Positions 4,567 to 33,485 of a stretch of DNA of 33,688 nucleotides are shown one piece after another (the first letter of the stretch is position 1; the number at the start of each line of letters is the position of its first letter). The notes beneath the pieces were generated by a model that was not told where the DNA came from, did not search any database, and saw only the letters and a list, made by a program, of their open reading frames with translations. This DNA is from Lamprocystis purpurea DSM 4197 (lineage in GTDB: Bacteria; Pseudomonadota; Gammaproteobacteria; Chromatiales; Chromatiaceae), in NCBI RefSeq assembly GCF_000379525.1, contig NZ_KB902526.1, forward strand, positions 1 to 33,688, written 5' to 3'. A program made the translations under genes and the position numbers.

Positions 4567-4844
4567 GGGCGTCGCCTCCGGACCTCTGCAAAAAAGTCGT
4601 CGATCAGCCGCTCGGGGGTAGTGAAGCGATACGGATGCTCGGTTCCGTCAAGGTGGAGATGGTCTCCCTTGCCGCGCTCGTTGTCGAATCCCACCACCCG
4701 CTTGCCAGGATAACCATAGAAAAGGCGGTACTTGTAGCTGTGGCCGCAACCGGGCACCGGTTCGGGCACGCGCCAGACAACGGCGTCGAGGATCGCCCCG
4801 TCGTCGTAGACCTCCCGGTATCGCAACAAGCGCTCGGCTGGCAT
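4563..4844 (-). CDS. tumE: TumE-family toxin (DUF6516)
   Basis: A 93-residue protein with the family pattern: a strand-rich core with DGAILDAVVWRVP, then HSYKYRLFYG, GKRVVGFDNERGKGDHLH (conserved Asn/Glu/Lys/Asp/His cluster), and YRFTTPERLIDDFFAEV at the end. TumE proteins are proposed toxins of type II modules paired with a winged-helix TumA. The antitoxin follows with a 4-base overlap. The ATG at 4844 is the only sensible start, although no strong ribosome-binding site precedes it. The biochemical target is not established to my knowledge. Confidence 0.78.
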   Translation of the reverse strand: MPAERLLRYREVYDDGAILDAVVWRVPEPVPGCGHSYKYRLFYGYPGKRVVGFDNERGKGDHLHLDGTEHPYRFTTPERLIDDFFAEVRRRRP

Positions 4845-10773: not shown

Positions 10774-10927
10774 AAGGCCGACACTGCGGCGGGTGCTGCG
10801 CGAAGAACTCGACGCAAGGCAGGCTGCTTGAGGGCGATGCATTTGAACGCTTACGGTCGCGCCTGGATACGCGCGCCCCAGCCTCAATGTCTTGCATCCC
10901 CAGAATGAACCGTTAAAGGAGAAAATG

Positions 10928-11155
10928 ATGGACTACATCGACAGAATCGCAATTGCGCCGGGTAAACGTGGTGGGCGCCCCGTCATCCGCGGGCTTCGCA
11001 TCACCGTCTACGATGTCCTTGGATGGCTTGCCGACGGCATGACCGCCGAAGAAATCATCGAAGATTTTCCGGAGTTGGAAAGGGCCGACATCCAAGCGTG
11101 CTTGGCCTTCGCCGCTGATCGCGAACGCCGCGCTGTCGTTGTTCAAGCGTCATGA
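10928..11155 (+). CDS. DUF433 antitoxin
   Basis: A 75-residue protein with the DUF433 pattern: MDYIDRIAIAPGKRGGRPVI, GLRITVYDVLGWLADGM, then EEIIEDFPELERADIQACLAFAADRERR. The family has an HTH-like core and is the usual antitoxin partner of DUF5615 PIN-like proteins. ATG 10928 is preferred: AAAGGAG (10915-10921) lies six bases upstream, and family members commonly start MDY. ATG 10925 directly before it would add one Met. The stop overlaps the next gene's ATG by four bases. Confidence 0.85.
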   Translation: MDYIDRIAIAPGKRGGRPVIRGLRITVYDVLGWLADGMTAEEIIEDFPELERADIQACLAFAADRERRAVVVQAS

Positions 11156-11973: not shown

Positions 11974-13284
11974 TCACAGCAGTCCGGCCCGTTTAATGTC
12001 GAAATAGCGGTTCACCAGCGCGATAGGCAGTTGCGCCGGGAGCAGATCCAGCGACTGGATGCCCAGGTGTTGCAGGCGCTCCTGGTGCCGCTGCCGCTGG
12101 GCGAGCCAGCCATGGACGGTGTGGAAGCGTAACGCCTCCTCAAGGTTGCCGATCGGCGCCTCCAGTGCCCGATCCAGGGCGGCCTCGCGCAGGTCGGCGA
12201 CCACCACCAGATGACGGCGGCGCAGGAGTTGCGCGGCCTGCTCCAGGCCTTCCTGATCCTCGTCCCGACTGTTGGTGAGGATCACCACGAGGGCGCGGCG
12301 CGGCATGGCGGCCAGCAGGGCGCGGGCCGCGGCCAGCGGGTCCGCGGCTTCCAGGCTGGGTTGCAGGTCGTAGACGGCCTCCAGCAGCCGGTTCACCGTG
12401 GCGGGCTCCTTGCGCGGGGCGAACCAGCGGCGCGGTCCGCCATAGGTCATGAGTCCGACCGCGTCCCCCTGACGGACCGCGACATAGGCGAGCAGCAGCA
12501 GGGCGTTCAGCGCCTCGTCGAGGTGGCCGCGGCCTTGTCCGGCGTCGCGGTGGCGCATTCGCCGGCCGCAGTCGAGCAGAAACAGCAGGCGCTGATCGCG
12601 CTCGTCCTGATACTCGCGGGCGATGACTTTACGCATCCGCGAGGTCGCTTTCCAGTCGATCTGACGCAGTGAGTCCCCCTCGCGATATTCACGCAACTGG
12701 TGGAACTCGGCCCCGCTGCCGCGGCGCTGGAGTCGGCGCACGCCGAGTTGGGCCAGTTGATCATTGGCGGCGAGCAGGGTGTAGCGGCTGATCTCGGCGA
12801 AGTTGGGAAAGACCCGCAGCGTTTGCGCCGGCGGCAGGCAGCGGGTGCGCACCCACAACCCCAGGGGTGACCGGGTGGCGACTGCGCAGCCCACCACCGG
12901 GAAATCGCCGCGGTTGGGTGGGCGCAGGCGGTACTGAACCTCGGTTTGTCCGCCGGGTTGCAGGCGCAGATCAACGGGCAGTCCCTGTGCATCGAACTCG
13001 GCCGGGTGGAGGTCGTGGACGCGCAGTCGCAGCGTCTGAGCGGACGGATTGCCGACTTCCAGCCGCACCGGGCTCCAGACACCCAGCGGCAGGGTGCGGC
13101 CCATGTGTCGGCGCAGCAGCGGGTCGGGTAAGCGCCGCAGGGCGAACAGGTCGGCGAGCGCGAGCCCGGCGATCAGCACCCCGCCCCATTGCCAGAGGGT
13201 CCCGACCCAGGGCTGCCAGGCGGCGGCGATGCCGACGGCGGTCCAGGCGGCGAGGGCGATGACGAGGGGGGGGCGGGGGGTCAT
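11974..13284 (-). CDS. DUF58 domain protein (MoxR partner)
   Basis: A 436-residue protein. Two hydrophobic segments in residues 6-48 anchor it; a beta-rich part follows, then the DUF58 signature EFHQLREYREGDSLRQIDW (193-211) and a von Willebrand A-like fold starting LLFLLDCGRRM (233-243). DUF58 proteins almost always accompany MoxR AAA+ ATPases; the pair is thought to act in assembly, metal insertion or envelope stress, but no reaction is known for this group. It is the last gene of the operon, 46 bases after moxR. ATG 13284 is chosen because the family begins with the membrane segments; upstream sequence in frame overlaps moxR and a repeat. Confidence 0.85.
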   Translation of the reverse strand: MTPRPPLVIALAAWTAVGIAAAWQPWVGTLWQWGGVLIAGLALADLFALRRLPDPLLRRHMGRTLPLGVWSPVRLEVGNPSAQTLRLRVHDLHPAEFDAQGLPVDLRLQPGGQTEVQYRLRPPNRGDFPVVGCAVATRSPLGLWVRTRCLPPAQTLRVFPNFAEISRYTLLAANDQLAQLGVRRLQRRGSGAEFHQLREYREGDSLRQIDWKATSRMRKVIAREYQDERDQRLLFLLDCGRRMRHRDAGQGRGHLDEALNALLLLAYVAVRQGDAVGLMTYGGPRRWFAPRKEPATVNRLLEAVYDLQPSLEAADPLAAARALLAAMPRRALVVILTNSRDEDQEGLEQAAQLLRRRHLVVVADLREAALDRALEAPIGNLEEALRFHTVHGWLAQRQRHQERLQHLGIQSLDLLPAQLPIALVNRYFDIKRAGLL

Positions 13285-13314
13285 GGGGGTAGTAGCGAGT
13301 GGGCAGACGGGGCG

Positions 13315-13334
13315 GTCCGCGCAGCGGACCCTAC
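13315..13334. repeat. Half copy of the GTAGGGTCCGC repeat at the moxR stop
   Basis: gtccgcgcagcggaccctac matches the left arm at 10691-10710 in 19 of 20 positions. Bases 13331-13333 inside it supply the TAG stop codon of the MoxR gene on the minus strand. Confidence 0.7.
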
Positions 13335-14317
13335 GAGCGCGGCGCCGGTACGGCCGCCAGCAGGTCGCCGAGGACGTCGTCCGGTCGGTAGCCCTCGATT
13401 TCCAGGTCGGCGGTGAGTTTGAGGCGATGGCGCAGGACGGCCGGCGCCATCGCTTTGACATCGTCCGGAGTCACGAAGGCCTTGCCCTCGGCCAACGCAT
13501 GGCCGCGGGCGGCCCGGACCAGGGCGATGCCGGCGCGCGGTCCCGGGCCGGTGTCGATGCCCTGCCAGTCGCGCGCGGCCCGGATCAGGCGCACCGCGTA
13601 GTGCAGCACGCTGTCGTCCAGGCGCAGGCGCGCCGCAACGACTTGCAGCGCGGTGATGTCCTGGGTGTTCAGCACCCGGCCCACCCGCGAGGTGTCGAGT
13701 TGGTCGCCGATCTGTCCGTTGGTGACCTGGCGCACCAGGTCGAGTTCCTCCTGCTCGCCCGGGTAGTCGATGAAGATCTTGAGCAGGAAACGGTCGAGTT
13801 GGGCCTGGGGCAAGGGATAGGTGCCCTCCTGCTCGATCGGATTCTGGGTGGCATAGACCAGGAAGGGCGCGGGCAGGGGCAGCGGCTGGCCCTCGATGGT
13901 CACCTGCTGCTCCTGCATCGCTTCGAGCAGGGCCGCCTGGGTCTTGGCCGGGGCGCGGTTGATCTCGTCGCCCAGCAGCAGGTTGCAGAAGATAGGGCCG
14001 CGGCGGATGCGGAACTCCTCGGTCTTCATGTCGAACAAGGCGTGTCCGGTGACGTCGCTCGGCATCAGGTCGGGCGTGAACTGGATGCGCGCGAAATGGC
14101 CGCCCACGGCCTGCGCCAGACCGCGCACCAGGAGCGTTTTGCCAACCCCCGGCACGCCTTCGAGCAGACAATGACCGGCCGCCGCCAGGGCCACGACCGA
14201 CTCCCGGAGCACCTGGCGCTGCCCCACCAGCGCCCGCCCGACCGCGGCCTCCAGGGCTTGCAGGTGCGCGGCGGCCTGGGCGACCGCCTCATCCAATCCA
14301 GTCTCCGATTCGCTCAT
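13331..14317 (-). CDS. MoxR-family AAA+ ATPase
   Basis: A 328-residue ATPase. Walker A is GVPGVGKT (54-61); Walker B is LLLGDEIN (113-120), followed by RAPAKTQAALLEAMQE, diagnostic of MoxR. A sensor region with YATQNPIEQEGTYPLP follows, then a helical lid domain. MoxR proteins are chaperone-like AAA+ machines that work with von Willebrand A proteins, here presumably the DUF58 protein encoded next. Length is standard. ATG 14317 is followed by a normal start (MSESETG). The stop codon lies in a copy of a dispersed repeat. A 165-bp gap with a G-rich heptamer tract separates it from the preceding DUF4350 gene. Confidence 0.92.
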   Translation of the reverse strand: MSESETGLDEAVAQAAAHLQALEAAVGRALVGQRQVLRESVVALAAAGHCLLEGVPGVGKTLLVRGLAQAVGGHFARIQFTPDLMPSDVTGHALFDMKTEEFRIRRGPIFCNLLLGDEINRAPAKTQAALLEAMQEQQVTIEGQPLPLPAPFLVYATQNPIEQEGTYPLPQAQLDRFLLKIFIDYPGEQEELDLVRQVTNGQIGDQLDTSRVGRVLNTQDITALQVVAARLRLDDSVLHYAVRLIRAARDWQGIDTGPGPRAGIALVRAARGHALAEGKAFVTPDDVKAMAPAVLRHRLKLTADLEIEGYRPDDVLGDLLAAVPAPRS

Positions 14318-14410
14318 TCACGCCACCTCAGGCGATGTCCCGTCACATTCATCCGATGGATCAAGCCGCCCGCCGCCGGCTTGCGTCTGCTGGAGTTCCA
14401 GCGCAATCTG

Positions 14411-14470
14411 CCCCGAACCCCGAACCCCGAACCCCGAACCCCGAACCCCGAACCCCGAACCCCGAACCCC
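14411..14470 (-). repeat. Heptamer tandem repeat, G-quadruplex candidate
   Basis: Eight exact copies of ccccgaa (14411-14466) followed by cccc. On the minus strand, which is the transcribed sense of the operon, this reads GGGG separated by three-base TTC spacers, nine runs of four guanines. This fits the classic intramolecular G-quadruplex pattern twice over. It starts 13 bases after the DUF4350 stop codon and ends 93 bases before the moxR start. Confidence 0.9.
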
Positions 14471-14482
14471 TCGCCGCCAGGA

Positions 14483-15703
14483 TCACGGGCGCCGCCGCCT
14501 GGCCCCGTGCCAAAGCGCCTTGAGGACCTTGGTTTGCTCGATGAAGCCCTGGGCATCATCGGCCTGGGTCGTCAACGCTGCACGCACCTGTTGCGGCAAC
14601 AATCGGCTGGCCTCGGCGATGCCGGCGATCTGGTCGTGTTGCGCCAGTTGATGCAGGTCCGGGCGGCGCCGTTGCCAGACCGTGAAGACCTGCCGCCGCG
14701 TCGCCTCGACCAGTCCGGCGGCGCGCCCATGACGCCACAGGAAGGCCCCGGCGGCATCCAGGTGCTCGAGCAGGTCGCGTCGCCGCCGGTCCGGGGCCTG
14801 CTCCAGCGGTCCCAGCCGCGCGCTCAACGACCAGACCCACACCAGGACCAGGATCGCCACCGCGCTGATGCCTGCCGGTGCCGCGGCCCACAGCAGGGTC
14901 CCGAGCCAGGGAACCGCGCTGTCGTAGAGCAGCCAGACCTTGCCGCCGGGGGCCGGCTGGACCAGATAGGCGAGAAACAGCGCGTGATCGTGGCGCCCGA
15001 TCCGGTCGTTGGTGAGGAACAGGTGGTCGCTGGACACCGTGAGCATCCCCGCGCCGACCGGCAGTCGCACCATGCGCGTTCGCCCCCCGGCCGCAACCTC
15101 GGTCGCACCCGCGACACCCGCGGCTTCCAGGTACCAGTCCGGATGAAAGGCGACGCTCAGCGGTTCGCCGCCCGGCAGCCAGGGCGCCTTGGCCAGGATT
15201 TGATCCCGGTCCTTGCCGGAGGTCCCGTCGGCGTCCTCTTCGGTCTCCCGCAGCCTGATCCCGAAGGTGCCCGGCAGGTCGTCCGGATCCGGCGCGGCGG
15301 CCGGAACCGCATCATCGGACGACGCCTCCGCGTCGTCGTCTGCATCGTCCCACAGGTCGACCGCTTCCACCACCAGTCGGCCGCCATCCTGGAGCCAGGC
15401 GCGCAGTGCCGCCTGGCGTGCCGTGCTGAGCGGCCCCAGGCCATTGACGACCAGGGTGTCGGTGATGGGTGGGAGTTGCCGCAGCAAACCACGGCCGGCA
15501 CTGCTTTCCACCGGGATTCCCAGGCGGGTGAGGAAGCGCTCAGCCGCGAGCATGGGATTGCGGCGGGCTGCCGCGGCGGCACCGATCGGGATCTCCTGGG
15601 TCCGGCGCTCGAAGTTGGCCAGAAACCAGGCGGTGAAGGCCGCCATGCCGATCACGAGCAGACCGGTCAGCACCAGCGCCAGGGTGCGTCGTTCAGGCGC
15701 CAT
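14483..15703 (-). CDS. DUF4350 domain membrane protein
   Basis: A 406-residue inner-membrane protein. Residues about 9-30 form the first helix; a periplasmic part follows with the DUF4350 pattern (NPMLAAERFLTRLGIPVE, then QDGGRLVVEAVDLWDD, a glutamine-amidotransferase-like fold without known activity) and a very acidic loop (DDADDDAEASSDDA). A second helix lies near residue 270 (AAPAGISAVAILVLVWVW), and a cytoplasmic helical tail ends Arg/Pro-rich. It is the fourth gene of the operon; its start overlaps the preceding DUF4129 gene by 11 bases, indicating coupled translation. Role unknown, probably a membrane partner of the MoxR/DUF58 system. Confidence 0.82.
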   Translation of the reverse strand: MAPERRTLALVLTGLLVIGMAAFTAWFLANFERRTQEIPIGAAAAARRNPMLAAERFLTRLGIPVESSAGRGLLRQLPPITDTLVVNGLGPLSTARQAALRAWLQDGGRLVVEAVDLWDDADDDAEASSDDAVPAAAPDPDDLPGTFGIRLRETEEDADGTSGKDRDQILAKAPWLPGGEPLSVAFHPDWYLEAAGVAGATEVAAGGRTRMVRLPVGAGMLTVSSDHLFLTNDRIGRHDHALFLAYLVQPAPGGKVWLLYDSAVPWLGTLLWAAAPAGISAVAILVLVWVWSLSARLGPLEQAPDRRRRDLLEHLDAAGAFLWRHGRAAGLVEATRRQVFTVWQRRRPDLHQLAQHDQIAGIAEASRLLPQQVRAALTTQADDAQGFIEQTKVLKALWHGARRRRP

Positions 15704-17237
15704 GGTCGGCTCCGTCCGGTCGCGGCGCTGCCGTGTCGGTCCAGCGCAGCCAGGCGGCGAGGTGCGCGTCGATCCGGTCCAGGTCCGGTGTCCGCCGGGC
15801 GTAGGCCAGCGCCTCCCAATCGTGGGTCAGGAGCCGTAACGGCGCCAACTCGGATGCCTCCAGATGATGGGCCGCCAGGCGCAGGACCTCGCCTTCGGTG
15901 GCGCCCTCCGGGATTGTGACAGCGCATCGCGACAGGTGCGCGATGCTGCCGCGATAGAGCAGCGCCAAGGCGCCGCGCGCATCACCGGCGGCGAGGTGCG
16001 CGCGCACCGCGGTGGCCAGGTCGACCGGGGTTGGGTGAGGGTCCGCGGCCGGGGCCGCCGCGCGGATGACCGTCGACGGCTGCCGTCGCCGTCGCGCCGC
16101 GGGCCGCCAGTCGCGCAGGATGCGGCGCGCCAGCAGCGCAACCGCGGCGACGGCGCAGATGACCAGCAGCCATTTGAACAGCGGTCCGAGGAGCAGCGCC
16201 AGTTCGCCCAGCCACCGCAGCCAGGATGGTGTCTCGGTGGGCATCTCGTCCGGTCCGGTGATGGGCGCCCAGAAGGTGAGTTCCCGGGTGCGGCCGAAGG
16301 TCTCGTCGGCGAGGACTTCGGCCATGATCGCGCGCGCCTCGGCAGCGTCCGGCCAGGGTGGCGCGGGCGTTGCGGCCTGCAGTCCGCCGCCCGGCCAGGT
16401 CGTCGCCAAGCCGATCAGCAGGGTGCCGACCAGGGCCATGGTCAACGGTCGGCCAGGCCCGAGGCGTCGCTCCCGTTGGCCTGGTGTTCCGGCTCGGGGT
16501 GCCGACCCGGTGGTTCCCGCCTGGCGAAAGGCGAGTTCCAGATCCCAGGCTTCCAGTTCAGTGCGGCGGCCGATATAGAGCGCGAAGCCGCCACAGACGT
16601 AGAAGGGGGCGATCACCGAGGCGGCGAGCAGGTAGAGCGCGCTGCTCAGCCAGTAGGGCCAGGATTGCCCGTCGGTCACGGCGGCCGCCAAGTCGATGTT
16701 CGGCAGGCCCGCGGGGATCAGGAAATACAGGCCGAGCAGCAGTCCGCCCCAGAGGATGGCCTCGAAGTGATAGCAGATCAGGGTCAGCCAGGCGGCGGTT
16801 CCGTCGCCCTCGCTCAGCACCCGACGGCGGCTGCGCACGGCCGCCCCGTGCAGCCCTTCCAACAGGACGATGGGCAGATTGAACGAGCGGCCGACACTCA
16901 GCCGGCGCCAGAGCAGAGAAGGGAGCAGGCGGCGGGTCCAGGCGGATCTGAAGATGACACCGGCATTGCGCAGCGCCACGGGCTCGCCGAACAGCGCGCG
17001 GCTGCTCCAGTACAGCAGCGGGGCCTCATAGAGCGGCTTGAACCACCAAACCAGCACGAGCCACCAGTCGGCCTTCCCGCCGACCAGGGCCAGTGCGAGG
17101 AGAGCCGGCGGCAGGGTTCCCAACCACCACAACAGCCAGAGGGTTGGGAACCACTGACGCGCCAGGGTGAACCCCAGATCCACGCCCTCCCAGGGGCGGC
17201 GCGGGCGCAGGACAGCGGCGGCCCGGTCAAGCTCCAT
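15693..17237 (-). CDS. DUF4129 domain membrane protein
   Basis: A 514-residue protein. The first ~240 residues hold several hydrophobic segments (WFPTLWLLWWLGTLPPALLA, LPSLLWRRL, AILWGGLLLGLYFL, WLSSALYLLAASVIAPFYV). A periplasmic stretch follows, then one more helix near residue 350 (WLLVICAVAAVALLARRIL). The C-terminal DUF4129 region (about 390-510) includes ARGALALLYRGSIAHL and THDWEALAYARRTPD. DUF4129 is a recurrent neighbour of MoxR, DUF4350 and DUF58 genes, with unknown function. ATG 17237 has GGGGTGA upstream; GTG 17246 is an alternative. It overlaps the SpoIIM-like gene at the front and the DUF4350 gene at the end by 11 bases each. Confidence 0.82.
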   Translation of the reverse strand: MELDRAAAVLRPRRPWEGVDLGFTLARQWFPTLWLLWWLGTLPPALLALALVGGKADWWLVLVWWFKPLYEAPLLYWSSRALFGEPVALRNAGVIFRSAWTRRLLPSLLWRRLSVGRSFNLPIVLLEGLHGAAVRSRRRVLSEGDGTAAWLTLICYHFEAILWGGLLLGLYFLIPAGLPNIDLAAAVTDGQSWPYWLSSALYLLAASVIAPFYVCGGFALYIGRRTELEAWDLELAFRQAGTTGSAPRAGTPGQRERRLGPGRPLTMALVGTLLIGLATTWPGGGLQAATPAPPWPDAAEARAIMAEVLADETFGRTRELTFWAPITGPDEMPTETPSWLRWLGELALLLGPLFKWLLVICAVAAVALLARRILRDWRPAARRRRQPSTVIRAAAPAADPHPTPVDLATAVRAHLAAGDARGALALLYRGSIAHLSRCAVTIPEGATEGEVLRLAAHHLEASELAPLRLLTHDWEALAYARRTPDLDRIDAHLAAWLRWTDTAAPRPDGADHGA

Positions 17238-18210
17238 GACGGTCACCCCGGCCGGCCAGGCTCAGATAGACGGCTACCAGTATCCAGCCCACGGCGCCGA
17301 CCCCGTACTTGACTTCGGCCGGCGTGCCGCCGGCAGACCAGAAGGCCTCCACCACCGCGGCCAGCAGCAGCATCAGCGCGGCCCCGCCGACCAGCACCAC
17401 GGCGTCGCGCGCATTGGCGCGCAGGGCGGCCAGGCGGGTGCGGCGTCCGGGGGCGAGCAGCGCCTGGCCGAGCAGGAGTCCGGCCGCCCCGCTGATGGCG
17501 ATGGCGGTCAGCTCATAGGGTGCGTGACTGCTGACAAAAGGCCAGAAGGTCGACTCGAAGCCCAGCCGGGTCAGGTGGCCGGCCGCGGCGCCGATCGCCA
17601 ACCCGTTGAACAGCAGAATGATCACGCTGCCGAGCCCCAGCAGCAGCCCGCCGGCAAAGGTGCGGAACCCGATGCCGATGTTGTTCATCACGTAATAGCC
17701 GAACATCTGAAAATCGGTGTCCGCCTGGCGCTGTGCGGCGCGCCCGACCTTGCGGTTCGCCGGGTCGTACAGTGCTTCCAGATCGGTCACCTCACTGCTG
17801 TCCATGAGGCTGTAAATCAGTTCACCATCCTGATGGCAGGCAACGCCCATGATCGCCATCGGCAGGAACAGCAGGGCCGCGGCCAGCCAGAACGCGGCCG
17901 CATGACGGCGCAGGGTGCGGGGAAAACCGGCCGCCATGAAGGCCAGGGTCGGCCCCAGTAACGCCGGTCGACGCTGGTACAGACAGCGGTAGCCGCGCCG
18001 GACCAGCGCGTGCAGCTCGGCGATCAGCCCCGGGCTGTAATGGCGGGCGCGGGCCAGGGCGTAGTCGGCACACAGGCGCCGGTAAAGCACCGGGAAACGC
18101 ACCGGCGCCGGGTCTGGCCGGCGGCGACCGCGGCTTTCCAGTGTGTCGAGGAGTTGACGGTACTCCTCCCATTGGCCGGCTCGGTCGGCGGCGAAGGGTT
18201 GTTGTCGCAT
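17227..18210 (-). CDS. SpoIIM-like (DUF95) membrane protein
   Basis: A 327-residue polytopic inner-membrane protein. A soluble helical N-terminus (about 1-95) precedes five or so helices, including FWLAAALLFLPMAIMGVAC, GGLLLGLGSVIILLFNGLAIGAA and ALMLLLAAVVEAFWS. The NNIGIGFRTFAGGLLLG and SHAPYELTAIAISGAAGL motifs are characteristic of the stage II sporulation protein M family. In non-sporulating gammaproteobacteria these are found next to RDD and MoxR/DUF58 genes; the role is unrelated to sporulation and not defined. It begins three bases after the RDD gene stop. Confidence 0.85.
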   Translation of the reverse strand: MRQQPFAADRAGQWEEYRQLLDTLESRGRRRPDPAPVRFPVLYRRLCADYALARARHYSPGLIAELHALVRRGYRCLYQRRPALLGPTLAFMAAGFPRTLRRHAAAFWLAAALLFLPMAIMGVACHQDGELIYSLMDSSEVTDLEALYDPANRKVGRAAQRQADTDFQMFGYYVMNNIGIGFRTFAGGLLLGLGSVIILLFNGLAIGAAAGHLTRLGFESTFWPFVSSHAPYELTAIAISGAAGLLLGQALLAPGRRTRLAALRANARDAVVLVGGAALMLLLAAVVEAFWSAGGTPAEVKYGVGAVGWILVAVYLSLAGRGDRHGA

Positions 18211-18213
18211 GGT

Positions 18214-18981
18214 TCAGCGCCCCCTGGTCAGCCAGCTTGCGTAACCGGCCACCAGTGCCACCGCGGCGGGTCCACTCGGCCAGGTCTGGCCGTCCGCGGC
18301 GGGGGGAAACCGGGCGAGCAGGGTTTCGGCGAGTTCGATCCGTCGTGCCGCCGACAGTCGCGCCGCCCGTTCGTCGAAGGCGAGGATCGCCTGCGCGGCG
18401 GTCAGCGACAAGCCGGCGGGCGGCGGTCGGGGGGCCGTGTCGCATTGTGCGGCGAGGGCCGCGGCGAGGGCCGCGGGGCGGGCGACGGGGTTGTCCGCAT
18501 GGACAACCAGGGTGCCGGCCGCCAGATCGCCGAGTCGGCGAAAATCCCGGTCGGCCAGGGTGCAAACCAGGCCGACACCGTAGAACAGCGGCAGAAAATC
18601 GACGACTCGCAAGAGGTTGCGGATCAGCGACGCGGGCAGCCCCACCGGGGTGCCGTCGTCGTGGACCACCAGTAATCCCAGCGCGCGTTTGCCGGGGGTG
18701 GCCCCGGTCCAGACTTCGAAGACCACCGGATAGAACCATTCGAGCAGGAAGCCGGCGATCAGGATCATCCCGGCCCCGAGACCGGCGAAGGCCGCCAGCG
18801 GAGTGAGGGCCAGGTAGACCAGGAGTCGAATGCCGCCGTCGACGGCCAGTGCCACGGCGCGCGCCGTCGGGCCGGCCGGGCGCAGGCCCAGGTCGACACC
18901 CTCCGGGGTCTCGTTCAGACGGATGGTGTCGCGGGGGGCTACGACGGCAGGGCGCGCGCGGCCGTGCGTGGCGAAGGGCAC
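18214..18981 (-). CDS. RDD-family membrane protein
   Basis: About 255 residues. The RDD domain (about 20-165) includes NETPEGVDLGLRPAGPTAR, a first helix pair (LLVYLALTPLAAFAGLGAGM, ILIAGFLLEWFYPVVFEVW), the GATPGKRALGLLVV motif and DFRRLGDLAAGTLVVH. An Ala/Arg-rich helical tail follows. GTG 18981 is proposed as the start: the frame stays open further upstream, but there it runs through a REP-type palindrome (19049-19069) whose translation is a well-known spurious motif. Family members normally begin a few residues before the ETPEGV segment. First gene of the six-gene operon. Function unknown; some RDD proteins affect ion transport. Confidence 0.8.
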   Translation of the reverse strand: MPFATHGRARPAVVAPRDTIRLNETPEGVDLGLRPAGPTARAVALAVDGGIRLLVYLALTPLAAFAGLGAGMILIAGFLLEWFYPVVFEVWTGATPGKRALGLLVVHDDGTPVGLPASLIRNLLRVVDFLPLFYGVGLVCTLADRDFRRLGDLAAGTLVVHADNPVARPAALAAALAAQCDTAPRPPPAGLSLTAAQAILAFDERAARLSAARRIELAETLLARFPPAADGQTWPSGPAAVALVAGYASWLTRGR

Positions 18982-23766: not shown

Positions 23767-26484
23767 ATGCTGCCCGTCTTGTTTGCACTGCTCGGGATCG
23801 CGATCGGCGGGCCGCTGTTCGGTGACTGGTTCGCCTCCGCGCTCGCCGGTCTTGCCCTCGGTCTGATCCTCGATCTGCGTCGGCGGGTGGCGGCCCTGGA
23901 GCTTGAGCGTGCGCTCAGACGCTTGCGCGAGAGCGTGCCGGCACCGCGGCCGCTGACTGAACAGACCACTGAACGGACGGCCGAACCGGATTCGACACTG
24001 CTGTTCTCGCGGTCCGTGCCGCCGACCCGCGCGGTCACGACCGCGCAGACCGCTGCCGCGTCGGAGATCGACATCCTCGCCGAGTGGGACAGGCCGACCG
24101 GCCGGGCCGGATCCGCGCGCGCCGACGCCGCGGCCACCGGCGCGGCCGAGCCCTGGTGGGTCCTGGCCCGCAACTGGCTCCTGGGCGGCAACCTCATGGT
24201 GCGAGCCGGCGTGGTGGTGTTGTTCTTTGGTGTCGCCTTTCTGCTCAAGCTCGCCGCGGAACACGCCTTGCTGCCCATCGAGTTGCGGTTGAGCGCGGTC
24301 GCCGTCGGCGGCCTGCTGCTGCTGTCGCTCGGCTGGCGCCTGCGGCAGTCCCGGCCGCTCTACGGGCTGGCGCTGCAGGGCGGCGGGGTCGGGTTGTTTT
24401 ATCTCACCGTGTTCGCGGCGCTGCGGCTCTATGCCCTGATTCCGCCCGGCCCCGCCTTCGCGGTCCTGGCGGTGGTGGCCGCCGGTGCCGCCGCCCTGGC
24501 CGTGCTCCAGAACGCCCAGGTGCTGGCGGTACTCGGTGCTGTCGGCGGCTTTCTGGCACCGGTGCTGACCGCCGCGGGGACCGACAGTCATGTCGGTCTC
24601 TTTTCCTACTATCTGGTGCTCAATCTCGGCATCCTGGTGATCGCCTGGTTCCGCCCCTGGCAAGCGCTGAACCGGGTGGGTTTCGTCTTCACCTTCGTCA
24701 TCGCCTCCTTATGGGGCTATCGGTTCTATCGGCCGGACCAGTTCGCCGGCACCGAGCCCTTCCTGATCGCCTTCGCGGTCCTGTACGTGGCCGTGGCCCT
24801 GCTGTTCGCGCGCCGCCAACCGCCGGAGTCGCGCGACCAGGTGGATGCGAGTCTGGTGTTCGGTGTTCCGCTGGTGGGGTTCGCGCTCCAGGCGGGGCTG
24901 GTGCAGCGGTATGAGTACGGTCTGGCCTGGAGCGCGTTTGCCGCGGCGGTCTTCTATAGCGGTCTGGCCGGCCTCGGGTTCGTGCGCCGCGGCGCCGTGC
25001 CGCGACCGCTGACCGAGGTCTTCCTCGCCATCGGAGTGGTCTTCGCTACCCTGGTCGTGCCCTTGGCCCTGGATGCCCGCTGGACCGCGGGGTTGTGGGC
25101 TTTGGAAGGTGCGGCCATGGTGTGGGTAGGCGGTCGTCAGGGCCGGCTTGAACCCCGCCTGTTCGGTTATCTGCTGCAGATCGGGGCGGCACTGGCCTTG
25201 CTCCTGGCCGTCTGGGAGGCGCCGGCGGAATTGCCCGTGCTGAACGGTCTCTTCGTCGGCGCACTCTGCGTCGCTCTTGCCGGGGTCTATACCGCGTGGC
25301 ATCTTCAGCGTCACCCGGAGGCGGTTCCCTGGGAAACGCTGCTGTATCGGCCGTTCCTGGTTTGGGGGCTGCTGTGGTGGTACGGCGCCTGGATCACCGA
25401 GATCGCCGACCAGGTGGGCCAGGCGCAGCCGCTGGTCACCGCGTTGGCGCTCTGTTTCACCGCGTCCGCACTGCTCGCCGATCGGCTGCGCTGGACGCTC
25501 CCCTGGCCGGATTTGCGTTGGCCGGCCCGCGCACTGCTGCCCCTGCTCTATCTGCTGTTGCCGCTGGCCGGCTGGTTACTCGACCATCCATTCACGGGCT
25601 GGACGCTGGCCGGGTGGGGAGCCGGACTGCTGGGCCACCTCTATCTGCTCCGCCGGGAGGAGGACGGCGTGGCGTCCGAACCGGCGCTGCTCGCCCTGCT
25701 GCATCAGGCCGGGTTCTGGCTGGTCCTGATCCTGCTCTCCTGGGAGTCCGCCTGGCGGCTGGATCACTGGATGCAAGGTGCCGACACCTGGCCGTCCCTG
25801 GCCTGGGCACTGATCCCGGCGGCCGGGATGCTCACCTTGCGGCACCTGGGCGGACGCCTCCCCTGGCCGGTGTCGGCGCACCCGCGGGTGTATCGGGAGC
25901 AGGCCCTGGTGCCGGTCGGCTGCTTCCTCTGGGGCTGGGTCCTGGTGTCCTGTCTCGTCAGTCGGGGCGACGCCACTCCCTTGGCCTATCTGCCGCTGCT
26001 GAATCCGTTGGACATGGGTATCGGGCTCGCCCTGCTGGTGCTGGCCGATTGGCTCTATCGGGTCGGCCTGGACGGCGCCGCCGCGGCACCGGACCGACCG
26101 GCCTGGCGTTGGTCCTTCGCCCCCTGGGCACTGGGGCTCACCCTGTTTCTCTGGCTCAACAGCGCCTGGTTCCGGACTGCCTATCACTGGCTGGGTGTGA
26201 GTTTCTCGCCCGCGGCCATGCTCGGCTCCCAGACCGTCCAGGCGGGGCTGGCTGTACTCTGGGCCTTGGCCGGGCTGATCTGCATGGTGCTGGGCCACCA
26301 CCTGGCGCAACGCCGGGCCTGGTTCGCGGGCGCCGCGCTCATGGGTGTGGTGGTGCTCAAGCTGTTCCTGGTGGACCTGTCCAGTTCAGGTACCCTGGCA
26401 CGTATCGTCGCCTTCCTGTCAGTGGGCGTGCTGCTCCTGGTCGTCGGCTATTTCGCGCCGCTGCCGCCGCGCGCGAAGGCGTGA
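23767..26484 (+). CDS. DUF2339 polytopic membrane protein
   Basis: A 905-residue protein. A short hydrophobic N-terminus (MLPVLFALLGIAIGGPLFGDW) is followed by a charged helix with Arg/Glu heptads and a disordered stretch to about residue 130. From WWVLARNWLLGGNLMVRAGVVVLFFGVAFLLK onward the DUF2339 core appears: over twenty hydrophobic helices, with VGGFLAPVLTAAGT and the final VVVLKLFLVDLSSSGTLARIVAFLSVG. The function of the family is unknown. GGAG lies ten bases before ATG 23767. Its stop is two bases from the stop of the convergent hydrogenase large-subunit gene, with no terminator between them. Confidence 0.88.
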   Translation: MLPVLFALLGIAIGGPLFGDWFASALAGLALGLILDLRRRVAALELERALRRLRESVPAPRPLTEQTTERTAEPDSTLLFSRSVPPTRAVTTAQTAAASEIDILAEWDRPTGRAGSARADAAATGAAEPWWVLARNWLLGGNLMVRAGVVVLFFGVAFLLKLAAEHALLPIELRLSAVAVGGLLLLSLGWRLRQSRPLYGLALQGGGVGLFYLTVFAALRLYALIPPGPAFAVLAVVAAGAAALAVLQNAQVLAVLGAVGGFLAPVLTAAGTDSHVGLFSYYLVLNLGILVIAWFRPWQALNRVGFVFTFVIASLWGYRFYRPDQFAGTEPFLIAFAVLYVAVALLFARRQPPESRDQVDASLVFGVPLVGFALQAGLVQRYEYGLAWSAFAAAVFYSGLAGLGFVRRGAVPRPLTEVFLAIGVVFATLVVPLALDARWTAGLWALEGAAMVWVGGRQGRLEPRLFGYLLQIGAALALLLAVWEAPAELPVLNGLFVGALCVALAGVYTAWHLQRHPEAVPWETLLYRPFLVWGLLWWYGAWITEIADQVGQAQPLVTALALCFTASALLADRLRWTLPWPDLRWPARALLPLLYLLLPLAGWLLDHPFTGWTLAGWGAGLLGHLYLLRREEDGVASEPALLALLHQAGFWLVLILLSWESAWRLDHWMQGADTWPSLAWALIPAAGMLTLRHLGGRLPWPVSAHPRVYREQALVPVGCFLWGWVLVSCLVSRGDATPLAYLPLLNPLDMGIGLALLVLADWLYRVGLDGAAAAPDRPAWRWSFAPWALGLTLFLWLNSAWFRTAYHWLGVSFSPAAMLGSQTVQAGLAVLWALAGLICMVLGHHLAQRRAWFAGAALMGVVVLKLFLVDLSSSGTLARIVAFLSVGVLLLVVGYFAPLPPRAKA

Positions 26485-26486
26485 TC

Positions 26487-28448
26487 CTAGGATGCGCAAC
26501 GCATGTCCGACACTCGGGTGGTCGAACAGACGCCATGATTCACATCCACCTGGACCAACGGCTTGCCGTCCGGGTCGACGATATGGACTGCGCAGCCGAT
26601 GCAGGGGTCAAAACTGTGAATCGTCCGCAGCACTTCCAGCGGCTGCTTGAGATTGGCCAGGACATGGCCGCGCAAGGCCTCTTCATAAGGCCCGGGCACG
26701 CCGACGAGATCACGCGGTCCGGCATTCCATTGACTGGCAACGACACATTGGTAGTTATCGATCAGGCCTGAGACACGATTGAGCTTCACCCAGTGACCCA
26801 GAGCTCCGCGCGGTGCTTCGGTGAAACCGAACCCCACCTGCACGGGCCACAGATTAGGCTGTTGAAGGCGCGTAAAGGTGTTGGGATTCCAATAGGCACC
26901 CGCTTTGTTGTTGTAATAAAGCTGATACCATCCGGCGTAGGCTGCGGTACCCGCCGCCGTGTCGGCCGCCCGACCGGCGATCTGGTCGGCGATAATCTTG
27001 GTCTCCAGTACGCGGCAGAAGATTCGCCCCAGAGTGGAATTCAGCTGCGTGAAAGTAAGCCCCAGACCGCCCTGCGCCGTTGGATTGATCCAGAGTTGCT
27101 GCACATACTTGCGGACCAGCTTGTCCGTGGGTTGGGCGTTCGCGGTGCCGCCCCGTGCGTGCATCGTCAAAATATGCGCCAGCGGCCCGACTTCCATCGG
27201 CTGATCGTCGTAGCGGGGTGACTTGATCCAGGAATACCTGGCATTTTCATCAAGCATGTATTTTGAGGTGCCATCGGGATTACGGCCTTGATCAGGCAAG
27301 GGCCCGTCGTAATACAGCTCGGTCTCGCCAACGGACGGATGCTCACCGGTATCCGAGCCCAAATACCAGGCATGGGCGACATTCTCGGTCACCATTTTCT
27401 CATCGAAGGGGGTCAGCGTCGTCGGCGCATCTGCCCAGATCACGCCTTGGGGAATAATGTAACCGGCAGGATAGTCGATCGCGCCATCAGTGAACTCCCG
27501 CTTCACCAGTGCCGGGTCCGGGAACTCGCCGTAGCACAAGAAATTACCAGCGGTTGCACCAAAATTTGCCCACTCCTTATAACGCTTCGCCACCAAGATC
27601 ACGTCGGGCAGATAGACCTGATCGACAAAGGCCTTCATCCTCGTCACGGCGGTCTTGATAGTCGCCAACCCCTCGGTGTTGAGCGAGGTGCCCCCCTTTT
27701 CATCATTGACCGTACCGGTGTTGCTGCTGAGGGTGCAGGGCATGCCGCCTACCACCAGATTGGGATGGGGGTCCTTACCGCCGAAGACCGAATGCAGCTT
27801 GACCACCTCCCGTGCCCAGGCCAGCGCCTCGAGATAGTGGGAGACCAGCAACAGGTTTTCTTCCGGGCTCAGTTTGTACGCGGAGTGACCCCAATACCCA
27901 TTGGCGAAGAGGCCAAGCTGACCCCGGCTCACCAGGTTGTTCAGCTTGTTCAGGACAGTCTGAAAATAGGCGGCGTTCGGGAGCGCGCCGTTGTTCGGCT
28001 TATAAGTGCCATTGTTGATCCTGGCCAAGGCGGCGGTCCTGGTCGGATTCGCTTTCATCGCACTGACCACATCCACCCAGTCCAGCGCGTGGAGATGGTA
28101 AAAATGCATCACATGATCGTGGACATACTGTGCGCCGATCATCATGTTGCGGATGTAGTCGGCATTCTTGGACACCTTGATACCGATCGCGTGCTCTACG
28201 GCGCGCACCGAGGTCAATCCATGTACTACGGTACAGACGCCGCAGATCCGCTGGGTGAAGGCCCAGGCATCCCGAGGGTCGCGGCCCTGGAGGATTTTCT
28301 CCAGCCCCCGTACCATCGTACTGGCGCTGAGTCCGGGGTCCGTAATGGTGCCGCCGCCCATGCCGTCCGGCACGGCATGCGCTTGGATGCGCAAATGACC
28401 CTCGATGCGGGTAACGGGATCGATGATAACGTTCGGGGTGGCAGCCAT
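26487..28448 (-). CDS. [NiFe] hydrogenase large subunit
   Basis: A 653-residue catalytic subunit, group 1 type. The nickel ligands are in RICGVC (Cys69, Cys72) and DPCIGCAVH (Cys616, Cys619). N-terminal DPVTRIEGHLR and YVHDHVMHFYHLHALDW are typical. Maturation proteases cut after the His in DPCxxCxxH (His622 here). The part removed would be 31 residues, about twice the usual 15: the canonical-looking IVDPDGKPLVQVDVN is followed by 16 extra residues ending MRCAS. AGGAG lies seven bases before ATG 28448. It follows the small subunit gene by 87 bp. No endopeptidase gene is within the window. Confidence 0.93.
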   Translation of the reverse strand: MAATPNVIIDPVTRIEGHLRIQAHAVPDGMGGGTITDPGLSASTMVRGLEKILQGRDPRDAWAFTQRICGVCTVVHGLTSVRAVEHAIGIKVSKNADYIRNMMIGAQYVHDHVMHFYHLHALDWVDVVSAMKANPTRTAALARINNGTYKPNNGALPNAAYFQTVLNKLNNLVSRGQLGLFANGYWGHSAYKLSPEENLLLVSHYLEALAWAREVVKLHSVFGGKDPHPNLVVGGMPCTLSSNTGTVNDEKGGTSLNTEGLATIKTAVTRMKAFVDQVYLPDVILVAKRYKEWANFGATAGNFLCYGEFPDPALVKREFTDGAIDYPAGYIIPQGVIWADAPTTLTPFDEKMVTENVAHAWYLGSDTGEHPSVGETELYYDGPLPDQGRNPDGTSKYMLDENARYSWIKSPRYDDQPMEVGPLAHILTMHARGGTANAQPTDKLVRKYVQQLWINPTAQGGLGLTFTQLNSTLGRIFCRVLETKIIADQIAGRAADTAAGTAAYAGWYQLYYNNKAGAYWNPNTFTRLQQPNLWPVQVGFGFTEAPRGALGHWVKLNRVSGLIDNYQCVVASQWNAGPRDLVGVPGPYEEALRGHVLANLKQPLEVLRTIHSFDPCIGCAVHIVDPDGKPLVQVDVNHGVCSTTRVSDMRCAS

Positions 28449-28535: not shown

Positions 28536-29642
28536 CTAGTCGTCATCACCACCGATATCGTCATGACAGGTGTTGCACGGAAGGCCGCGAGTATGGCCGG
28601 ATCCCGCGGCGATCGGGATGTAGAACCCTTTTTCATTTCTCCGGTTGGGACGATCCCAGAAATCCGGCTCTGAGCACCCGATGCACCCATGTCCGGACAT
28701 CATCGGGAAACTGGTGCCCTGGTTCCAGCGGATACGTGAGCAGGCGTTATGCGTGACCGGACCTTTGCACCCAAGCATATACAGGCATTTGCCTTTGCGG
28801 GAGTTGGCATCATCGAAGGCCCATGCCAACGGACCCTCCTCAAAGGATTCTTTGCGATAGCAATCCTCATGAACCGTATCGCCATAGAACACGGTGGGAC
28901 GGCGCAGTGAGTCAAGCGTCGGCATCCCTTGACTCAGGTAGTACAGAATGACGCCGGTAATCACCTCGGGAATCGGCGGGCACCCCGAGATGTTGATCAA
29001 TGGCTTGGAAATTCCGAGGTCAGCCATCAGATCGCCGATCGAAAGTGCATCAGTCGGATTGGGGTCGGCCTTGGGCAGACCGCCAAAACTCGCACAGGTC
29101 CCGACGGCGACGATCAAAGCCGCATTCTTGGCGGCATCTCGAAAACGGGCGACGCCGCTGCGTTCGCCACTGATAAAGTAGCCGCTATCCCAGCGGGCAG
29201 GGATGGACCCATCCACGACCAGGACATAATCTGACTGGTCGGTGACCGACAGGAGTCGTTCCTCCGCCTGATCGCCTGCCGCCGCCATCAGCGTTTCCTG
29301 GTAATCCAGCGAAATCATGTTCAGAATCAGATTTTCGATGGTCGTGCCGCCGCTGAAGGCAAAAGAGTTGACCATGGACTCCAGGCAGCCCGTGCATTCC
29401 TGAAATGACATGTAGACGACCGAAGGCAAGGTCGTCGAAGTGGCGGCCTGTGCCAGTCGCGGCACCATCGATTGCGGCAGCGCAAGCAGCGACGCCAGTC
29501 CCGCGCAATAGGACATGAAGCGTCGCCGGCTGATGCCGAGCTGCAATAGCCGCTCCACCGTTGCTTCGTCGAACGTGACGCCGTCGCTCGAATCCGCCTG
29601 CATGTGTGAGTGATCCGATCTGCTCGGTAAATCGGTGCTCAT
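28536..29642 (-). CDS. [NiFe] hydrogenase small subunit with CXXCH tail
   Basis: A 368-residue Fe-S subunit. A Tat signal with SRRRFM (38-43) and a hydrophobic stretch ending LAQA (63-66) directs the folded heterodimer to the periplasm. Proximal 4Fe-4S ligands: Cys83, Cys86 (ECTGC), Cys183 (GTCA), Cys221 (SGCPP). Distal 4Fe-4S: His258, Cys261, Cys286, Cys292. Medial 3Fe-4S: Cys301, Cys320, Cys323. ECTGC, not ECTCC, argues against the oxygen-tolerant six-Cys type. After EPDFWD there is no membrane helix; a 38-residue tail ends PCNTCHDDIGGDDD, giving a haem-c-like CNTCH (356-360). GGAG is eight bases before ATG 29642. Confidence 0.93.
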   Translation of the reverse strand: MSTDLPSRSDHSHMQADSSDGVTFDEATVERLLQLGISRRRFMSYCAGLASLLALPQSMVPRLAQAATSTTLPSVVYMSFQECTGCLESMVNSFAFSGGTTIENLILNMISLDYQETLMAAAGDQAEERLLSVTDQSDYVLVVDGSIPARWDSGYFISGERSGVARFRDAAKNAALIVAVGTCASFGGLPKADPNPTDALSIGDLMADLGISKPLINISGCPPIPEVITGVILYYLSQGMPTLDSLRRPTVFYGDTVHEDCYRKESFEEGPLAWAFDDANSRKGKCLYMLGCKGPVTHNACSRIRWNQGTSFPMMSGHGCIGCSEPDFWDRPNRRNEKGFYIPIAAGSGHTRGLPCNTCHDDIGGDDD

Positions 29643-29761: not shown

Positions 29762-30190
29762 CTAAACCGGTGAGGGTTCCGCGAGCGTCTGTCGAAGACG
29801 CAGTAATCCGGCACGCATATCGATAACATGGGTTTTCAGGATGTCCGGAACTTCCGTGATTTCGATCAGCTCCGTCACGATACCGCCCTGCTCGTTGCGA
29901 TGCGTTACCCACCAAACGCCAGGATATTGCGTTTCTCTGATCTCAACTGTGACATCGCTATCAACCGTGGCGCTCACCTCGCCCGCGGACAACGCATCCT
30001 TAAGCGACTGATAAGTGGCCGCGTCCATCTGCGGCATCGCTCGCAGATCGATGACGGTAGCGAGTCTTGATTCAAGGAATTGCGCGAGGGTGTCCGCAAC
30101 GTTATTCAGAACTGCTGTCACCAGGGGCGACGCGTTGCCCCGGCTTTCGCCAGGATCGGCCTGTACCGGAATGTCACTCAAGCGGGTCAT
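29762..30190 (-). CDS. HupH/HyaF-like hydrogenase maturation factor
   Basis: A 142-residue protein matching the C-terminal domain of HupH/HyaF (PF04809): LKDALSAGEVSATVDSDVTVEIRETQYPGVWWVTHRN, then ELIEITEVPDILKTHVIDMRAGLLRLR. Full HupH proteins are about twice as long; here the N-terminal part is absent, as in other short forms. The family assists maturation of the small subunit's Fe-S clusters. It is the first gene of the operon, 119 bases before the small subunit. ATG 30190 is preferred although no good ribosome-binding site is seen; ATG 30313 would add 41 residues of unknown character. Confidence 0.82.
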   Translation of the reverse strand: MTRLSDIPVQADPGESRGNASPLVTAVLNNVADTLAQFLESRLATVIDLRAMPQMDAATYQSLKDALSAGEVSATVDSDVTVEIRETQYPGVWWVTHRNEQGGIVTELIEITEVPDILKTHVIDMRAGLLRLRQTLAEPSPV

Positions 30191-30662: not shown

Positions 30663-31619
30663 ATGTCCAACACTGCCCTGCGGATGCCGAGCCTGCCCAC
30701 CGAGGACGACCTGCCCTGCGACGACGGAGAGCCCATGGAGACCTTGCGCCACCGGTTGCAGATGGAACTCCTGATCCACTCGCTCGACCCTTGGGCCCAA
30801 GCGCGCGGCGACTGTTTCGTCGGCGGCAACATGTTTCTCTATTTCAGCAGCGAGCAAGTGCGCGGCAAGGACTTTCGCGGCCCGGACTTTTTCGTCGTGC
30901 TCGGCGTGTCGCCCCGCGAACGCAAGAGTTGGGTGGTCTGGGATGAAGAGAAAGGGCCGGACCTGATCGTCGAACTGCTCTCCGAGAGCACCGCGCACAC
31001 CGACAAGACCGAGAAAAAGCGCATCTACCAGGACCGTCTGCGGGTCGCCGAGTATTTCTGGTACGACCCCTGGACTCCGGAGGACTTCGCCGGCTTCACC
31101 CTGACGGACGGGCGGTACCGACCGCTGCTGCCGCGCACCGTGGGGCGGATACCCAGTCCACTGCTGGGGCTCGACCTGTGCTGGTGGGACGGCAGTTACG
31201 GCGGTGTCGAGACCCGCTGGATTCGTTGGTCCACGCCGGATGGTCAACTGCTGCCGACCGCGGCCGAGGCTGCCATTGCCGCGGCTGAAGTGGCCCGGTT
31301 GGAGGCTGATGCGGCAAAAGCAGGGGCCGAAGTGGAGAAATCGAAGGCCGAAGTGGCGAAGTCGGAGGCTGAATTGGCGAAGTCAGAGGCTGAAGTGGCA
31401 AAGGCGAAAGCTGAATTGGCAAAGTCGGAGGCTGAAGCCGCCAACTCAGCGGCCGAAGCTGCCAAGTTGGAAGCCCAAGCGGCCAAGTCGCAGGCCGCAA
31501 CCGCTATCCGCCAACTCGACGCCGAGGCCGAGCGCGCGGCGGCGGCCGAGGCCCGCGCCCGCGCTGCCGAGGCGGAGCTGGCACGGCTGCGGATGCGCCT
31601 ACCGGACTCCGCTCGCTGA
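30663..31619 (+). CDS. Uma2-family putative endonuclease with coiled-coil tail
   Basis: A 318-residue protein. The N-terminal ~190 residues are a Uma2 (DUF820) domain of PD-(D/E)XK-like fold: GGNMFLYFSSEQVRGKDFRGPDFFVVLG (catalytic-type Asp), DLIVELLSEST (Glu), and KRIYQDRLRVAEYFWYDP. Residues 208-277 are ten Ala/Glu/Lys/Ser heptads, a long coiled coil, followed by an Ala/Arg-rich end. Uma2 proteins are very abundant in cyanobacteria and purple sulfur bacteria and are of unknown role; nuclease activity is inferred from the fold. GGAG precedes ATG 30663 by eight bases. The last 21 bases overlap the convergent DUF1848 gene. Confidence 0.85.
   Translation: MSNTALRMPSLPTEDDLPCDDGEPMETLRHRLQMELLIHSLDPWAQARGDCFVGGNMFLYFSSEQVRGKDFRGPDFFVVLGVSPRERKSWVVWDEEKGPDLIVELLSESTAHTDKTEKKRIYQDRLRVAEYFWYDPWTPEDFAGFTLTDGRYRPLLPRTVGRIPSPLLGLDLCWWDGSYGGVETRWIRWSTPDGQLLPTAAEAAIAAAEVARLEADAAKAGAEVEKSKAEVAKSEAELAKSEAEVAKAKAELAKSEAEAANSAAEAAKLEAQAAKSQAATAIRQLDAEAERAAAAEARARAAEAELARLRMRLPDSAR
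31284..31493 (+). repeat. 21-bp minisatellite inside the Uma2 gene
   Basis: Ten consecutive 21-bp units, each encoding a heptad of the form AExAKSE. The central units (31347-31430) are the most alike, for example gaagtggcgaagtcggaggc. Because each unit is one coiled-coil heptad, slippage would change the length without breaking the frame. Confidence 0.85.
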
Positions 31620-32694: not shown

Positions 32695-33217
32695 TCAGGC
32701 TGATGGCCTTGTGTCCGTTCTGGCGTACGCCAAGCCGGTTTCCCACGCGGCGCTGAGCTTCGTACGCAGCGTTGATGCGATGCGGTCATCGTTTTTCGCT
32801 TGCTGCAATGTTTCGGTCATGGCTTGGGCGATGTGCTGAATGACAACCGCTGGGTTGGCAACGCCGCAAACACGCCGTCCGAACGCCATGAGCGCTTCGT
32901 TGGTCGGATAGGCCTTGGTTTGATGACGACCGCGCAGCAGTTTCAGCGCCATGGTCCTGTCTTCCAGCTCGGGACCGCCTTCGTAGCGGGTGTAGCGGTA
33001 AATGGCGGTGGTGACGACATCGAACATTGGCGCCAGCCAGGCATCGCGGGCCGAACGATACAGCAGCCCAAAGTTTTTCAAATGAGCATCGCCATTGCGC
33101 ACCATCACCGAAAAGGCGACCTGCTCGAAGAACCGAGAGGGAGCGCTTCAGCAACTGGCCGGCACTGCGATCGTCGCCGATGGCAACCTCCAGCAACGGG
33201 ATTTTGTCAGGCAGCAT
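32695..33217 (-). pseudogene. hipA: Broken hipA kinase toxin (internal deletion, frame change)
   Basis: ATG 33217 overlaps the end of hipB by 11 bases, the normal arrangement. The first ~25 codons (LPDKIPLLEVAIGDDRSAGQLLKRS) look like a HipA N-terminus. At about 33150 the similarity jumps to another frame, which continues FFEQVAFSVMVRNGDAHLKNFGLLY, the kinase catalytic loop, then APMFDVVTT and RTMALKL to a normal HipA C-terminus at 32695. A full HipA is about 400-440 residues; some 250 internal residues are missing and the halves are out of frame. The product cannot be an active kinase. A sequencing error alone could explain the frame but not the missing part. Confidence 0.8.
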
Positions 33218-33485
33218 CCTCGTCGTCCTCGTCCAGCCTGAACCGGTCAGCAACTTCCTGCATGGTCGGGAGACCGGCTTTTTCCAGCCGCATCGCGAGA
33301 CCCAGTGCCGCGAGCACCGCCATCAGCGAGGAGAGGGTGATGTCTTCGCCGCTCTCGAGGCGATAGATCACTTCACGCACCTTGCCGGCACGTTGCGCGA
33401 GATCTGTTTTTGACAGGCCGAGGGCTTGACGCCGTGCACGTATCTGCGCGCCAAGCTCATCAGGCAGGCGGATCCTGTCAGTCAT
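33207..33485 (-). CDS. hipB: HipB-like Xre-family antitoxin/repressor
   Basis: A 92-residue protein with an Xre-type HTH: LGAQIRARRQALGLSKTDLAQRAG, then VREVIYRLESGEDITLSSLMAVLAALGL. The C-terminal tail is acidic (DEDDEDAA). HipB binds operators before its own gene and holds the HipA kinase inactive. The frame is intact, although the hipA gene after it is broken. ATG 33485 is the start. An inverted repeat that overlaps the start (33474-33536) is a likely operator. Confidence 0.85.
   Translation of the reverse strand: MTDRIRLPDELGAQIRARRQALGLSKTDLAQRAGKVREVIYRLESGEDITLSSLMAVLAALGLAMRLEKAGLPTMQEVADRFRLDEDDEDAA

Follow-up and report, generated by a model that had tools for sequence, protein, structure and literature searches.

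The Isp-type [NiFe] hydrogenases (group 1e; Allochromatium vinosum, Thiocapsa roseopersicina HydSL/HynSL) resemble the enzyme analysed here in leader type and cluster ligands, and PDB entry 3myr, which we take to be the A. vinosum enzyme, is the best solved relative of its core. Enzymes of this type have a C-terminal hydrophobic stretch and the genes isp1 and isp2 between those of the two subunits, the arrangement given for Thiocapsa in the available text of PMC3102683. For the HynSL cluster of Alteromonas macleodii the same text gives the order orf1-cyt-orf2-hynD-hupH-hynS-hynL, and reports that full activity in E. coli required HupH but neither Orf1 nor Cyt. In monohaem and multihaem c-type cytochromes, CXXCH is likewise found in an exported redox protein, surrounded by a cytochrome domain. 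The available text of PMC6962350 describes covalent haem added by Ccm to non-haem proteins given a CXXCH, including a short, flexible C-terminal haem tag (Braun et al. 2005, cited there), hypothesises that any Sec-delivered CXXCH is a substrate for Ccm, and reports −215 and −219 mV for solvent-exposed haem on engineered proteins.

The stretch of DNA analysed here, referred to as the window, comprises 33,688 nucleotides of Lamprocystis purpurea DSM 4197 (NZ_KB902526.1, positions 1 to 33,688). On its minus strand, genes for a HupH_C-domain protein, a small subunit and a large subunit follow one another in this order. The HupH_C-domain protein (29762..30190; 142 aa, PF04809) is a proposed small-subunit maturation factor; its start was fixed by comparison with locus L125, and PF04809 matched a longer ORF sharing the stop. 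The small-subunit gene (28536..29642) starts at 29642, has its stop at 28536-28538 and encodes 368 aa with a twin-arginine leader, scoring 337.8 bits with TIGR00391 against a cut-off of 179.5, with PF14720 and PF01058 also above cut-off. After 87 bp follows the large subunit (26487..28448; 653 aa, PF00374). By family models, eleven Fe-S ligands and the adjoining large subunit, the small subunit is of the group 1 [NiFe] type.

All eleven ligands, ten Cys and H258, are present, and from known hydrogenases we take them to be grouped as C83, C86, C183 and C221; H258, C261, C286 and C292; and C301, C320 and C323. The protein has 13 Cys in total, namely C46 in the leader, the ten ligands, and C356 and C359 in the tail, which are the sole non-cluster Cys outside the leader and form PC-NT-CH. 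The two extra Cys that oxygen-tolerant hydrogenases with a six-Cys proximal cluster carry near that cluster are absent, all 13 Cys being otherwise accounted for. The leader motif ISRRRF spans residues 37-42, and R39 and R40 are invariant in all 36 aligned rows; the NCBIfam Tat model matched 10 of the 36 rows and gave no match on the window's small subunit.

The hydrogenase genes have a DUF2339 membrane protein as convergent neighbour (23767-26484), and a Uma2 protein lies upstream on the other strand (30663-31619). Further along the minus strand, a 136-aa HipA C-terminal piece beside a 57-aa ORF (32695-33380) may be the remnant of a broken copy, the ORF at the matching place in G002 being 417 aa long (L125:4951-6204). 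Adjoining TumE toxin-like and HVO_A0114 genes (4201-4844, minus strand) are likely a toxin-antitoxin pair, and DUF58, MoxR-type ATPase, DUF4350, DUF4129, SpoIIM and RDD genes in a row (11974-18981, minus strand) form a MoxR-type cluster. The genome as a whole contains six [NiFe] hydrogenase small-subunit genes of several types, on contigs C190, C2, C58, C163, C14 and C3.

After the FW motif, where most relatives have an anchor, the small subunit continues as a hydrophilic tail of 39 residues (28539..28655, minus strand) that ends PCNTCHDDIGGDDD and has no anchor helix. The first-pass annotation, which had described eleven Fe-S ligands followed by a tail of about 38 residues without a hydrophobic helix, is borne out in this respect, including the coordinates. 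Within the tail lies a block GSGHxRGxPCxxCHxD (residues 347-362; 28557..28604, minus strand), with 11 of its 16 columns invariant in six copies, and within the block a CXXCH (C356, C359, H360; 28563..28577, minus strand) that we propose as a haem c attachment site. The best 19-residue Kyte-Doolittle mean of the tail is 0.15. With the same scoring, 74 of 95 related rows had a stretch of 1.19 to 2.35, and 17 reached at most 0.29, comprising all 11 close copies and six short-tailed relatives; four rows were not scorable. A frameshift hiding an anchor was ruled out, since only 87 bp separate the stop from the next start and the other five copies end likewise, and an assembly error was ruled out by the agreement of six genomes.

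The missing anchor is accompanied by a compact gene arrangement. Most of the loci of the best 80 of 582 relatives look Isp-type, and in 55 of the 77 more distant ones the subunit genes lie 1.9-2.9 kb apart, enough to accommodate isp1 and isp2; isp genes in relatives are inferred here from gap size and place. Unlike the Isp type, the window enzyme has its 87 bp gap and a tail maximum of 0.15, and the tailed close copies have gaps of 70-95 bp, or 438 bp in one (L131). Short gaps of 4-51 bp were found in 7 of the 77 relatives; in six of these the tail is readable, short and not hydrophobic, and the C-terminal piece of the seventh (L019) ends alike. A further four have gaps of 274-757 bp together with hydrophobic tails (gap not measurable in 11 loci). 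Missing anchor and missing isp genes therefore mostly coincide, the four intermediate loci being exceptions in one direction; the anchor and the full isp pair do not always go together.

With the Alteromonas-type HynSL the window enzyme shares a hupH gene directly before the small subunit, the lack of isp genes between the subunits, and the lack of an anchor. Nine of the 11 close copies have a HupH_C gene directly upstream of the small-subunit gene, as do L013, L020, L022, L030 and L151; none was present in the stretch searched around the acidic-tailed copies L130/L131 (G005:C148, G003:C513). L020 and L030 have the hupH/no-isp layout of A. macleodii HynSL, but they and L031 differ from the window subunit in having short tails without CXXCH, about 50% identity to it, and a place on another branch of the tree. 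The Alteromonas type also has a multihaem cytochrome in its cluster, whereas the window cluster has none; such a gene does lie near the hydrogenase in G114 and G014. A cytochrome with seven CXXCH in the L030 cluster, presumably the 'cyt' of the Alteromonas cluster in PMC3102683, is homologous to the G114 octahaem cytochrome (39% over 82 aa, E 1e-11), as is the small membrane protein of the octahaem module to its L030-cluster counterpart (E 2e-5).

Close copies of the small subunit were found in 8 of 210 Chromatiaceae genomes, in at least 11 copies (E 1e-110); searches scored limited candidates per genome, so that the counts are lower bounds. CXXCH is present in six of the 11, in G000 (the window's genome), G002, G003, G005, G007 and, from another genus, G114, at identities down to about 70%. 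The same tail is accordingly found in related Chromatiaceae, in six genomes and two genera, as the first-pass annotation had suggested looking for. At genus level, five of eight genomes have a CXXCH copy. The five copies without it (G014, G108, G003 and two in G005) are the next-nearest, at 66-71% identity, and their tails contain no Cys. These sister tails (L103, L104, L110, L133, L135) are Asp-rich, most also with His, Gly and Arg, in some as repeats, and may perhaps bind metal or a partner. A scan of species genomes returned, among the best 80 of 582 relatives, one at 92% identity with CXXCH (L009) and two at 74% with acidic tails (L010, L011), which are the same copies as found in the family search (G005, G005, G014) and are counted once. 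The other 77 have at most 55% identity and no CXXCH in the readable part of the tail, the tails of L035 and L068 being cut by a contig end and the frameshifted L019 having had its C-terminal piece read separately. No further copy was found in a class-level sample of 369 genomes at E 1e-110; an order-level search of 210 genomes with a less strict threshold yielded three more relatives, which have 55-56% identity and lack CXXCH; and relatives in 88 records of a plasmid collection were all below 60% identity (8 rows viewed).

In a tree of the core without tails, the six CXXCH copies form one branch (82/88), recovered in 80% of 200 bootstrap trees. This branch is nested in a Chromatiaceae branch with the acidic-tailed copies (98/95), which joins the short-tailed L022 (Methylococcaceae) and then L013 (unassigned Gammaproteobacteria) at 95/90, where the branches are long and may be unsafe. 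The tree includes half of the TM rows, and L031 is labelled TM though short-tailed. All six members of the branch keep the motif and the five next-nearest copies lack it, so CXXCH is a feature of one branch and not of the wider family; it is narrow in range and firmly kept within that range. Conservation in close homologues, on which the first-pass annotation had staked its proposal, holds for the six copies of the window's own branch and fails for the five copies next to it.

Partners for such a tail were sought in the window and beyond. No cytochrome was found by Pfam on 28 ORFs of the window, 26 of them not hydrogenase subunits (the predicted gene at 10913-11146 lay outside the scan), and among the 27 predicted window genes CXXCH occurs in the small subunit only. 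The earlier remark that the window encodes no cytochrome b or Isp partner stands for the ORFs scanned, but the genome has both a b561-SHP-DHC (dihaem) module, at C144 (L169), and an octahaem module, at C131 (L168), on other contigs; CcmF is also present. The octahaem module combines an octahaem cytochrome with an FNR/2Fe-2S protein and a small membrane protein, and both G114 and G014 have it close to the hydrogenase. In G114, a same-strand string runs cytochrome b561, SHP (DUF1924), DHC, DHC, HupH_C, small subunit with CXXCH, large subunit. G007, with a CXXCH tail, has b561-SHP-DHC and gave no octahaem match. Both modules are also found in genomes that have no CXXCH copy. Of 11 genomes searched, 10 have DHC, two of them (G004, G006) without a close hydrogenase copy, which makes the link between DHC and the tail a loose one outside G114. 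A regulatory tie is seen in G007 and G003, where the sensor and regulator genes lie just upstream of the hydrogenase and show 66% and 79% identity, respectively, to the pair adjoining the octahaem module in the window's genome, three other pairs compared reaching only 27-29% (sensor) and 42-46% (regulator); in G000, G002 and G005 the pair is not beside the hydrogenase. The octahaem cytochromes (L137:58-879, L136:1856-2680, L168:7187-7990, L170:5780-6598, L142, L143, L145) have acidic C-terminal runs in all seven read, and in L136, L137, L168 and L170 they stand beside an FNR/2Fe-2S-like protein and a small membrane protein. An acidic end is therefore a shared trait of these proteins and not a mark of haem.

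From sequence and gene context, the enzyme is probably an H2:cytochrome c oxidoreductase, soluble and exported by Tat, with a flexible tail to which Ccm supplies one haem c and through which electrons leave. It would work in the periplasm as a soluble group 1 [NiFe] hydrogenase, in a lineage that has neither an anchor nor Isp genes between those of the two subunits. Assisted by the HupH_C protein, the small subunit would fold with its Fe-S clusters in place, and Tat would export it folded, together with the large subunit. In the periplasm, Ccm would meet the flexible C-terminal tail, also on this Tat-delivered folded protein, and attach one haem c at C356/C359. H360 would be the proximal haem ligand, with the conserved H350 possibly the second; His at −6 is rare, occurring at 1 of 41 CXXCH sites in cytochromes of these loci, and the second-ligand idea is accordingly weak. 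The C-terminal helix of membrane-bound hydrogenases emerges next to the distal cluster, so a tail from the same place could take over the exit of electrons; the haem would receive them from the distal [4Fe-4S] cluster. They would pass to periplasmic c-type cytochromes, most likely DHC of the b561-SHP-DHC module and/or the octahaem cytochrome, for which the acidic tail end may serve as a docking patch. If the potentials of engineered haem sites can serve as a guide, a haem at about −0.22 V would be a usable step above H2. A haem c exit fits its context, with CcmF in the genome, c-cytochrome modules linked in some relatives, and precedent in the Ccm haem tags described in the available text of PMC6962350. 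The first-pass annotation had thought haem on the tail odd for a folded Tat substrate; this objection is weak for a flexible C-terminus, though the same text speaks of Sec-delivered proteins.

In favour of haem are the strict motif, the absence of other free Cys, the Ccm background, and the ties to c-cytochromes through gene neighbourhood and regulators that some relatives show; against it are the sister enzymes without CXXCH, the lack of a cytochrome fold, the loose partner links, and a short tail that gives little protein shell. No cytochrome Pfam domain was detected in the small subunit at E 0.001, a difference from c-type cytochromes. Searched against the PDB, the tail peptide returned three sequences at E 1.5 to 5.8, all below significance and all cytochromes c7, which have a His before CXXCH as the tail does. 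An AlphaFold2 model from 36 rows was of poor quality (mean pLDDT 55.4) and uninformative about the tail: the tail blocks score 30-36, but much of residues 255-332 is low too. Base rates predict about 1.2e-4 chance occurrences of CXXCH in a tail of this kind. Of 150 script-predicted genes in the examined loci, 141 have fewer than two CXXCH and seven of those exactly one, namely five copies of the hydrogenase small subunit and two SHP/DUF1924 copies (five loci, among them that of the G005 copy, were left out of this count). All six CXXCH copies end in the block GSGH[ST]RG[LM]PCxxCHxD plus acids, with varying residues inside CXXCH and synonymous changes beneath 7 of the 11 invariant columns. Of the ten pairs among the five genus copies (G114 left out), the six more distant ones, which span two sub-branches, have a tail dN/dS of 0.10-0.19; the value is 0.18 within one sub-branch and 0.41-0.82 among the three closest pairs, where changes are few; core values are 0.06-0.26. 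It is very improbable that the motif is a chance occurrence or relict in a drifting, functionless tail: the tail changes faster than the core and varies outside the block in length and composition, as such a reading would have it, but retention in all six members of the branch and two genera, through synonymous change beneath invariant residues, argues against coincidence, as does the chance expectation.

That the tail instead uses H350, C356, C359 and H360 to bind a non-haem metal (Zn, Ni or Cu), whether to stabilise the protein, to store metal or to dock a partner, is unlikely. The invariant His, Cys, Cys, His set would suit such a site, and the Asp/His/Gly/Arg-rich character of several sister tails makes metal binding there conceivable, but those tails have no Cys, and for an exported protein in a cell that has Ccm, CXXCH is the standard site of haem attachment. 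Also unlikely, and slightly more so, is a tail without a cofactor, in which C356 and C359 form a disulfide or a partner cross-link as a redox or assembly switch while the acidic end docks cytochromes by charge alone. Acidic ends are common to the CXXCH-less sister tails and the octahaem cytochromes (7/7 read), so charge seems to matter independently of CXXCH; a disulfide, however, would not need the invariant His right after the second Cys. The five sister copies also imply that CXXCH is not needed for the basic reaction.

A haem c on the tail remains the reading we favour, and it can tentatively be carried further: the tail may be a natural haem tag, a Tat-exported folded hydrogenase bearing haem c on a disordered swinging arm between the distal cluster and diverse periplasmic cytochromes, which would make the enzyme an H2:cytochrome c oxidoreductase complete in itself, with a single origin in an anchorless Chromatiaceae lineage. 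Haem tags as presented in the available text of PMC6962350 are engineered and Sec-exported, whereas the window tail is natural and sits on a presumed Tat substrate. A search of titles and abstracts in the open-licence literature found no report of haem c or CXXCH on a [NiFe] small subunit, and the available text of the Thiodictyon syntrophicum genome paper (PMC5944118) names Isp, Hox and Hup hydrogenases and no such tail. If haem is bound, this would be a natural example of a Tat substrate that acquires haem c on its tail after folding, and of a hydrogenase that reaches c-cytochromes with no partner in the membrane. It would then bear on H2 use by purple sulfur bacteria and offer a model from nature for connecting hydrogenases to electrodes. 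The enzyme family also shows that its members can end in an anchor, an acidic tail or a CXXCH tail, as exchangeable parts.
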